Origin: Cristatella mucedo
Taxonomy: Eukaryota > Bryozoa > Phylactolaemata > Cristatellidae
Assembly: GCA_009760855.2 (NCBI GenBank)
Contig: WPIO01000040.1
Coordinates: 2,324,501 to 2,388,500, forward strand
DNA: 64,000 nucleotides
Direction: 5' to 3'
Below are positions 3,901 to 6,900 of the stretch, in pieces; within the stretch, counting starts at the first letter, position 1, and each line of letters starts with the position of its first letter. The notes beneath the pieces were generated by a model. That model ran no database searches. It was given only the letters and a program-made list of their open reading frames with translations, and was not told the DNA's origin. Position numbers and translations under genes: made by a program.

Positions 3901-6900
3901 TACTCCGGGACTGGTCCGAGACTACTCCAGGACTTTGAGGCATCTGGTTTTGCACATTCGAGATACGGTTTGAAATAGTGCAATTTGATATGCAGTTCGA
4001 ATGAGAAACTAATCAATTGTGTTTTCTGACGAAGCAAGAGATATAGGATCCTATAGAACTGCTATAAGGCTTGGCAAACATTTGATATCCCAAGGCTTGG
4101 CTCACATTCGATACCCCTGAACCACTGTGATCTGTAAGTATTAAAGTGTCTGTTGACGTAATGGGACAGAAGATCAATATGCTATGGCAGTGATTCTCAA
4201 CCTTCCTAGTGCCGCGACCCTTTAATACAGTTTCTCATGTTGTGGTGACCCCCAACCATAAAACTATTTTAATTGCTACTTCATAACTGGAAATTTGCTG
4301 CTATGAATCTTAATGTGAATCTGATATGCAGGATGCACTTTCATTGTTACAAATTGAGCATAATTAAAGCGTAGTGATTAATCACAAAAACAATATCGGT
4401 TCCTAAGACCACCGGAAATGCTGGTTTTCTGATGGTCTTAGGCGACCCCTGTGAAAGGGTCGTTCGACCCCCAAAGGGGTTGCGACCGCTTTGGTTGAGA
4501 ACCGCTGTGCTATGGGCTGTTAGCGCGCATATCAGGTCAAGACCAAGCAATCAGAAAGCTCTACAGGAGTCTTCCTCTTGTTTCCTTATATCTTATCTAG
4601 TTTTATCTGGCTTAACTATGTGCATGCGCAAAACAGACTGGTGAAACCTGAATTGTTACTGAGAAAATGCCCGACACAGTGAGATGCATTTTTAGAGAGA
4701 TATTTGGCGCATCCAGTAAATCTTACTTCAGATTCTTCTGACGATACTTTTAAATAGCCTTCGAAAAGTGCGACTTTTAGGTCATGATTTCCTTAGTGCT
4801 TAGTGTTTGAATATTTGGGAATAACATTGAACGTTGGTGTATTCTCTAATCACTGTTGAATGGTGTCTGTGTATTCCATGCAGCTATTGGTATTGCCAAG
4901 CACACATTTAACATTCAGTCTTTTTTTACAGCTGCTTTGATCGCTTCTTTCATTTTGTGAATACTTATAATAAGAAGTTGAAGCAGAAGAGGAAAGGGGG
5001 TTTTGTTATGGATGACCTCGATTTGGAGGGAATTGGATACATCTGGAGGGTAAGTTTTTTAACTAGGGGTTTTCCAATTGCTATTGTCTCAATTCGATGT
5101 TATTCGTCCTCGAAGCCTTAGCTTGTGAAACTAGTAAATGTCTGAGCCCCCCCTTTCTTTTTGGACCCCCTCCTATTGAGTTGTCAGCTAGGTCAATCAA
5201 CTAGGACACGATTTGATAGCTCGATAGCCACAGGAATATATTCAATCCGATTCTGCAACGCTCTGGAGCCTGGCCAATAATGCCTAAAAAATATCTAGCG
5301 AAGATGCTAATAATGCTACCTTTTTTATAGGTAGTACTGCATGGATCTAATGCAGTTGCTGAAAAAGGTATTTGTGTTCTTAAGGATATATATACGAATC
5401 TTGGCCCACGGTTGCTACCTGACCAGGTGAGGTCTGCGAAGACGAGTCGGCACTGCAAACGACCTAACTCAGTTGTATGCTGGGCAGATCACTCAGATTA
5501 ATCCTTTCAGATGGCCATCCGCAAAAAATTTATCGAGAAATGCTATGAACGTCTGCGCGCTTCACACGACAACCTAAAGCTGCTGGCTGCGGACATATCT
5601 GCAACTTCAGATGTAGCACCGTCTGTGGATGGACCCGGTGGTGCTGGTGGAGATGGCAGCACTATAGCGTGCCCAGTGTCTGGCTCGGCGATGGCTACAG
5701 AAGAGACGCGCATGGTGCGTGTGCTGACGGTGCTGAGAGAATACGTATCTGAATGTGACGATGCTTACGCAGAGGAACGATTGCTGCAGCCTCTGCATAG
5801 GTATGTAAGTGGCTCCTTTGCCTTTCTCAGCCTCAGCTCGATACGGTCAAATAGCCCTCGTTCAAATTTTTTGTTGCAGTTGAATCTAATCGTAATACTG
5901 CTTTAAGTGCTGTGCTACATGTGAATTTATATTTGGGTGTGGTGGCCCAGTTACTTACTGGCTATGTGGCACCTATGGTCGGCCAGTTTAATCCGTGAAG
6001 CAGACTGGTGGTGGCCTGTTCCACCACCTCTGCTCCACGCGATCAATCGCGAAACGTGACTTTTTGTTCCGACTAGCACGATAGCAGCAGCAGCAGCAGG
6101 TACACATCTTCAGTGTGCATCTTGACCATGCTTCTTGCAGGGCAAGCCACGGCAAGCACATGCTTGTGATCGCCAGGGTATCGAATCCGGGCCGCCAACC
6201 TGAAGATTTTGAGCTGACTTCACATTCCAATGATACGATGGGTTCATTGCGACGGCAGCTGCATCAGAAGTGAGTAACAAGCTTTCAATTAACTACTGCC
6301 GCCGGTGACCTGCAGTCGAATTGCACTGCACGTACAGACACACAAACACACACACAAAAGCACTCACGCACAAGCTCTCGTGCAAGCTCGTGCACAATCA
6401 TTAACCTTCTTGTATTGTCTGTAACAGGTTCAATCGCAATGCCTCCCAAGTAAAGATCGAGATTTATCACAACAATGACATTGTCGACACCACCGAAGAC
6501 AAAAAACTGGTTACTTCTTTAGGGATCAAGGATAAGAGTGTAAGTAGACATGATGGCAGCACCCATTGCAGTTGGCAGCAGCAGACCTTACTGCTGTAGC
6601 AGAGCAGTTTGCATTTCATTGTCCGGTATCTGCTTTCATTGTCCGGTATCTGCTTTCATTGTCCCATGTTGACGTCAGCTCTGTTGCCTGAATAAATTAG
6701 CTATGCAGGCAGTCTGTGTGCAGTAGTAGCTCGATTACCTTACCTTCTCCGGAGGATCGTTTCTTACCATTAACCACTCTTAGTTTTTTATTTATAAACG
6801 TGTCAACTGTTTGTTGGGTTGGCGTTTAGCCGTTACTTTTCTACCAATAACGGCTTTATGTGGCTTTTAGTTCAGTAGTGCTGCATTCAATCCTTTCAAT

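Follow-up and report, generated by a model that had tools for sequence, protein, structure and literature searches.

SPIN and SPIN_NA elements were reportedly described by Pace et al. in 2008 and Gilbert et al. in 2010. SPIN is recorded in Rhodnius (PMC11614815), and PMC5857283 dates its transfers to galago, murine rodents, opossum, tenrec and vespertilionid bats at 15–46 million years. For the snail Biomphalaria glabrata, PMC5440852 describes a hAT transposon of about 1,000 copies with significant identity to SPIN, and according to this paper the DNA elements there are not recent invaders, with no intact transposases detected. Further papers give 10–25 bp as the length of hAT terminal inverted repeats (PMC3942097), place SPIN in the Buster family and give nnnTAnnn as the target consensus of TcBuster (PMC3499496), and name URR1 as a hAT element of Xenopus tropicalis (PMC6027215). 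Transfer between distant animals is already established for such elements, and because a hAT of SPIN-like sequence has been published from a snail (PMC5440852), the family described here is a further case of a known phenomenon, adding one more protostome lineage that shares URR1/SPIN-type hAT elements with tetrapods.

The element that we analyzed lies in a stretch of 64,000 nucleotides, which we call the window. It is a non-autonomous hAT transposon (MITE) at positions 4188–4507, and its parts and the coding segments on either side are as follows.

3112..3339, + strand: upstream coding segment of a USP9X-type deubiquitinase (human residues 656–731), 35/76 residues identical
4180..4187, no strand: left-hand target-site duplication (8 bp), TGCTATGG, matching the right-hand one at 8/8 positions and fitting nnnTAnnn
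4188..4507, + strand: non-autonomous hAT element, long form, 320 bp, subfamily A, 92.2% identical to the 321-bp family consensus (322 columns)
4188..4202, + strand: left terminal inverted repeat, CAGTGATTCTCAACC, 87% complementary to 4493–4507
4402..4442, + strand: internal hairpin with 17-nt arms, 88% complementary, and 7 nt between them
4493..4507, + strand: right terminal inverted repeat, GGTTGAGAACCGCTG, pairing with 4188–4202
4508..4515, no strand: right-hand target-site duplication (8 bp), TGCTATGG, matching the left-hand one at 8/8 positions
5508..5816, + strand: downstream coding segments of the same USP9X-type gene (human residues 826–902), 23/40 residues identical in the better of two aligned segments

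When the window was scanned for pairs of 8-bp flanks that are identical and enclose termini agreeing at a minimum of 13 of 15 positions, at a spacing of 200–600 bp, a single place was returned, which is this element, and the same scan of 40 Markov-1 random windows returned none. The duplication is perfect over its 8 bp (4180–4187 against 4508–4515), as the preliminary description had stated. The 15-bp length that it gave for the inverted ends is also right, but the word perfect fits the duplication only, as 13 of the 15 terminal positions are complementary (87%). The left end of the window copy, CAGTGATTC, has one change from the terminal motif CAGNGGTTC proposed there; the family consensus reads CAGTGGTTCTCAACC at the left end and GGTTGAGAACCGCTG at the right. 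Repeats of this length fall within the 10–25 bp of hAT elements, and the traits of a MITE are present in a length of 320 bp, non-coding sequence, conserved ends and many copies (1,266 left ends, see below). The longest stop-free stretch inside the element bounds is 52 codons.

The flanking frames bear out the position in a USP9X intron claimed for the element. Upstream, the frame at 3064–3486 matches the USP9X ARM-repeat family (Pfam, E = 1.8e-22) and, by PDB comparison, residues 656–731 of human USP9X (FAF-X). Downstream, the frame at 5502–5903 matches FAF-X residues 826–902 by PDB comparison and gave no match in Pfam. Pieces of the UCH domain follow at 12689–12949 and 13833–14225, both slightly below the Pfam cut-off, and in the PDB the frame at 13833–14225 also matches the catalytic domain of FAF-X (E = 3.7e-26). 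By these matches, the element lies within an intron of a USP9X-type gene on the plus strand, the exons of which, in the window, are 46–58% identical to human.

The element belongs to a large family in its own genome. A search with the window copy gave at least 42 matches (2,139 first-look candidates, 40 scored), spread over 30 contigs among the matches listed. A count of copies, which the preliminary description had called for, was made over 572 Mb: the left end (24 bases, ≤2 mismatches) occurs at 1,266 places against 0 control places, the core of the long form (26 bases, ≤3 mismatches) gives 60 matches against 1 in the control, and the window copy's own core (44 bases, ≤3 mismatches) occurs at 6 places against 0. 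The Biomphalaria SPIN-like hAT, as described in PMC5440852, is similar in its lophotrochozoan host and its roughly one thousand copies, a likeness of description. Nine further loci, a non-random sample from among 100 listed exact left ends, all hold a shorter form (174–200 bp) from which 134–167 interior consensus positions are missing, and the family apparently consists mostly of an internally deleted form of ~187 bp. Given these nine loci and the 60 core matches against 1,266 left ends, a ratio that is rough because the patterns and mismatch limits differ, the window copy looks like the rarer, long form.

A 321-bp consensus was built from 39 of 40 copies (L001–L008 and L018–L049, with L038 omitted because it runs into Ns), and copies diverge from it by 6–25%. 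The median K2P distance of the aligned copies is 0.117 (0.108 without CpG sites) and that of the window copy 0.073 (0.054), figures skewed toward similar copies since the 40 were those that resembled the window copy most. No two of the aligned long copies are closer to each other than 0.11, and thus none of these is recent. Two linked subfamilies are present in the 39 long copies, with G/A at positions 103/106 in 20 copies, T/T in 9 and neither in 10; the nine T/T copies also have a different block at consensus positions 211–221. One locus, at C95:425800-428000 (L100), was considered as a long, possibly autonomous copy and rejected, as it is only a long-form MITE split by an insertion of ~1.3 kb; the insertion carries a 377-codon frame that by eye is reverse-transcriptase-like.

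Folded as single-stranded DNA, the window copy has a z-score of −4.25 against 100 shuffles, with the hairpin at 4402–4442 forming part of the fold. Such a strong predicted fold is what one might look for if the copy had been co-opted by the USP9X-type gene as a splicing or regulatory element or as a source of hairpin RNA. It is, however, expected of any element with inverted ends and a hairpin; comparison of 4100–4600 with Rfam gave no match at E up to 1, and the window copy diverges from the consensus to a degree also seen in the other copies. We consider co-option very improbable.

The flanks of the family show how the element chooses its target. Among 40 copies examined, 33 are full-length, and 27 of these 33 have flanks with two or fewer mismatches in 8, a level reached by 155 of 2,000 random flank pairs at the same shifts. 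Target-site duplications of 8 bp, a hAT trait, are thus found in the family as well as in the window copy (8/8). In the 54 flanks of the 27 copies, position 4 is T in 39 and position 5 is A in 46, which fits the Buster-group consensus nnnTAnnn. TcBuster has this target consensus in common with the family and differs in being autonomous where the element here is non-autonomous. Insertion and target choice can be read directly from the copies and, because their nnnTAnnn flanks match the Buster target, cut-and-paste by a presumed Buster-type transposase acting in trans is the best reading.

The preliminary description had claimed a signature of horizontal transfer. To compare the family with other animals, the plus-strand frame of the consensus, with stops as X, was searched against a predicted-protein collection, where 27 of 29 candidates matched at an E-value of 1 or less; a protein search with the window copy's minus frame gave no match from its one candidate. 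The 27 records come largely from metagenome, SRA or other contigs, and only the named ones enter the comparison. In Xenopus tropicalis, one predicted protein (P0122, E = 6e-13) is identical at 22 of the first 27 codons and a second (P0123, on a 154-Mb contig) at 24 of 27. A Myotis myotis record (P0125) agrees at 30 of 32 codons and one from Gekko kuhli (P0131, on a 33-Mb contig, with a source label that marks the record as unverified) at 26 of 27. Identity of the named vertebrate matches therefore spans 81–96% over 27–32 codons, with Xenopus at 81–89% and the bat and gecko at 94–96%. Twelve of the 27 matching records end in ATS, which is where the family's own stop codon falls, as one would expect were the DNA conserved and not a protein. 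In both Xenopus records, the left end is joined directly to the hairpin and right-end frame; judged by their translations, these predicted proteins are parts of the same element with another internal deletion. What is alike in tetrapods is consensus positions 1–96 and, in Xenopus, the internal hairpin.

Set against the host gene, these matches are far closer: a non-coding frame is identical at 30/32 and 26/27 codons, whereas the USP9X exons of the window are identical to human at 35/76 and 23/40 residues, in a comparison made at the amino-acid level over 27–32 translated non-coding codons (plus the hairpin segment in Xenopus) and one host gene. Common descent should not keep non-coding sequence alike while coding sequence drifts so far, which argues for a horizontal move. 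The alternative is ancient vertical inheritance, in which a hAT family of the bilaterian ancestor had its ends kept similar by selection. The terminal repeats and subterminal motifs of hAT elements can indeed be conserved for transposase binding. However, the likeness covers positions 1–96 and the Xenopus hairpin, beyond the ends alone, and the USP9X exons of the same window have drifted much further. We regard this alternative as highly unlikely. The claimed signature stands, since frog, bat and gecko have nearly the same non-coding frame, and the family most likely moved horizontally, directly or via other hosts.

A further possibility is that the assembly is contaminated with vertebrate DNA, which the preliminary description had recognized as fatal to its claim. 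The window lies on a 3.5-Mb contig together with USP9X exons at 46–58% identity to human, and the copies, on the 30 contigs noted above, have their own target duplications and diverge by 6–25%. Additionally, a mitochondrial contig of 21,008 bp (C688) uses the invertebrate code, with AGR read as Ser, AAA as Lys and TGA as Trp at COX1 positions that we take to be conserved. COX1 on this contig is supported by Pfam and PDB, and the remaining mitochondrial genes were named by eye from their translations; read in this way, the contig contains the block nad5-nad4-nad4L-cob-nad6-nad1, an order that is presumably ancestral for molluscs and some other lophotrochozoans. The two lottiid gene orders tabulated in PMC7648102 do not have this block, and limpets of Lottiidae were therefore rejected as a candidate host group. 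With the best 120 of 7,999 matches scored, COX1 is 95% identical to the first match and 77–82% identical to those listed after it, among which are gastropods, cephalopods and chitons and also nemerteans, a phoronid and annelids; among the matches listed, no species with a name exceeds this range. By these sequence comparisons the host is a protostome, in all likelihood one of the lophotrochozoans and perhaps a mollusc. A protostome host excludes vertebrate contamination, which the invertebrate code and COX1 thus rule out, and we give it a practically negligible probability. On the same mitochondrial contig, nad2 and cox2 (by eye) are encoded on the other strand, and the same reading frames recur in blocks spaced 2,115 bp apart (L015–L017). 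Possible carriers of the element were also searched: six exact element patterns gave no match in IMG/VR, two gave none in GTDB genomes, and the window copy gave no blastn match to plasmids and phages.

The relation to URR1 and SPIN_NA was assessed with presumed versions of the mouse URR1 and SPIN_NA sequences. Over 201 columns, what we take to be URR1 agrees with the family consensus at 95.0% identity, and over 199 columns it agrees with the window copy at 87.9%. At 16 comparable sites the window copy differs from its family, and the presumed URR1 carries the family base at 15 of these; for the presumed SPIN_NA there are 22 such sites, 14 with the family base, 5 with the window base and 3 with neither. 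Such agreement with the family base is hard to ascribe to a bias of the presumed sequences toward the window copy, and it should still be treated as a lead. The presumed SPIN_NA is 94.9% identical to the consensus at positions 59–211 (156 columns) and 77.2% over its whole length, differing in the first 58 bp and the right end.

Compared with the presumed mouse URR1, the family is alike at both ends and in most of the left half, and the window copy keeps interior sequence that the presumed URR1 is without, the internal junction of the latter being doubtful. The presumed vertebrate forms also have TGT after position 114, which the family consensus does not. For URR1 in Xenopus, the two predicted proteins described above agree at the left end and in the hairpin/right-end frame. 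With SPIN and SPIN_NA the family shares the interior block (of the presumed sequence), an 8-bp TA-centred target, membership of the Buster group and far-apart animal hosts, and it is unlike the presumed SPIN_NA in the first 58 bp and the right end. The element ends resemble the presumed URR1 more nearly than the presumed SPIN_NA. The label SPIN-like used in the preliminary description therefore holds in part: this is a hAT MITE of the SPIN/URR1 type, in which the presumed URR1 fits the outer ends and the presumed SPIN_NA the interior alone.

These alignments also bear on a stricter proposal, that the family is SPIN_NA itself and moved in the same transfers as the tetrapod SPIN wave of 15–46 million years. 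The overall identity of 77.2% to the presumed SPIN_NA, its differing ends, the close fit of the presumed URR1 at those ends and the smaller share of family bases at the departure sites (14/22 against 15/16) all count against this proposal. The high identity of the interior speaks for it, as does the bat match, which is to Myotis, since vespertilionid bats are published SPIN hosts (PMC5857283). We view strict SPIN_NA identity as possible, if on the doubtful side, and favor a broader URR1/SPIN-type assignment.

A transposase partner was sought among the hAT sequences of the same genome, which gave at least 138 matches (766 first-look candidates, 150 scored). Of these matches, 63 were grouped by their scores into one young family, in which the fullest matches have frames of ~640 codons and one match lists 1,947. 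Thirty loci of this family (L050–L079, on several contigs) were fetched, of which 24, reference included, align over ~2.2 kb at ≥99.0% identity and one more at 98.99%; the young family looks recently active. Neither TCTCAACC nor GGTTGAGA occurs exactly in these 30 loci with 1.5 kb on each side, and because the loci extend just that far, the 5′ ends of the young hAT may fall outside. The MITE family ends were likewise absent from 20 of the 75 weaker hAT loci, a set that includes some pieces of the young family, where the best match of the MITE consensus had E = 0.09 and none lay at termini. A hAT fragment from one locus (L092) matched Hermes-type chains alone in the PDB (E = 0.4–0.6), and no Buster sequence was obtained. 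In this search of 30 young-family and 20 weaker loci, no full-length SPIN transposase or partner gene was found.

Taken together, the evidence makes it very probable that the element is a Buster-group URR1/SPIN-type hAT MITE inserted in a USP9X intron, that its family arrived horizontally and multiplied in an old burst, and that this copy persists as a neutral fossil. The family would have entered a protostome, probably lophotrochozoan, lineage by horizontal transfer and not by common descent. A transposase supplied in trans would have recognized the element ends, and cut-and-paste insertion into the USP9X intron would have duplicated the 8-bp nnnTAnnn target. Amplification would have taken place in an old burst, apparently mostly as the internally deleted ~187-bp form, and the window copy would now be inactive, presumably without effect on USP9X. 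A literature search found no paper on this MITE family in this host, and six sequence strings, at least one of them off by one base, gave no match in the literature.

A more speculative extension, to which we assign a low probability, is that the lineage received at least two URR1/SPIN-type master forms, perhaps separately, and that invertebrates served as a reservoir or relay for the transfers to frog, gecko and bat. Compatible with it are the two linked subfamilies, since the smaller one (subfamily B) has the CTGTAATTTTGC state in common with what we take to be the vertebrate forms, and the internal deletions, which differ between Xenopus and this genome. Under such a reservoir scenario, the lineage would keep an undeleted form with core and hairpin, and the tetrapod short forms look like internal deletions of it; such invertebrates would then relay transfers and be more than mere recipients. 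The large family itself, both subfamilies of which are alignable with vertebrate copies, offers material for dating and for the direction of movement.

Elsewhere in the window, an inverted repeat of 1.13 kb at 93.5% identity joins 14693–15823, directly after the USP9X-type UCH-domain frames, with 62814–63945 at the far end of the window. Two neighboring direct duplications, 44531–44937 with 48779–49188 (~410 bp) and 46409–46859 with 49643–50064 (~450 bp), are 91% identical and suggest a local duplication spanning several kilobases.
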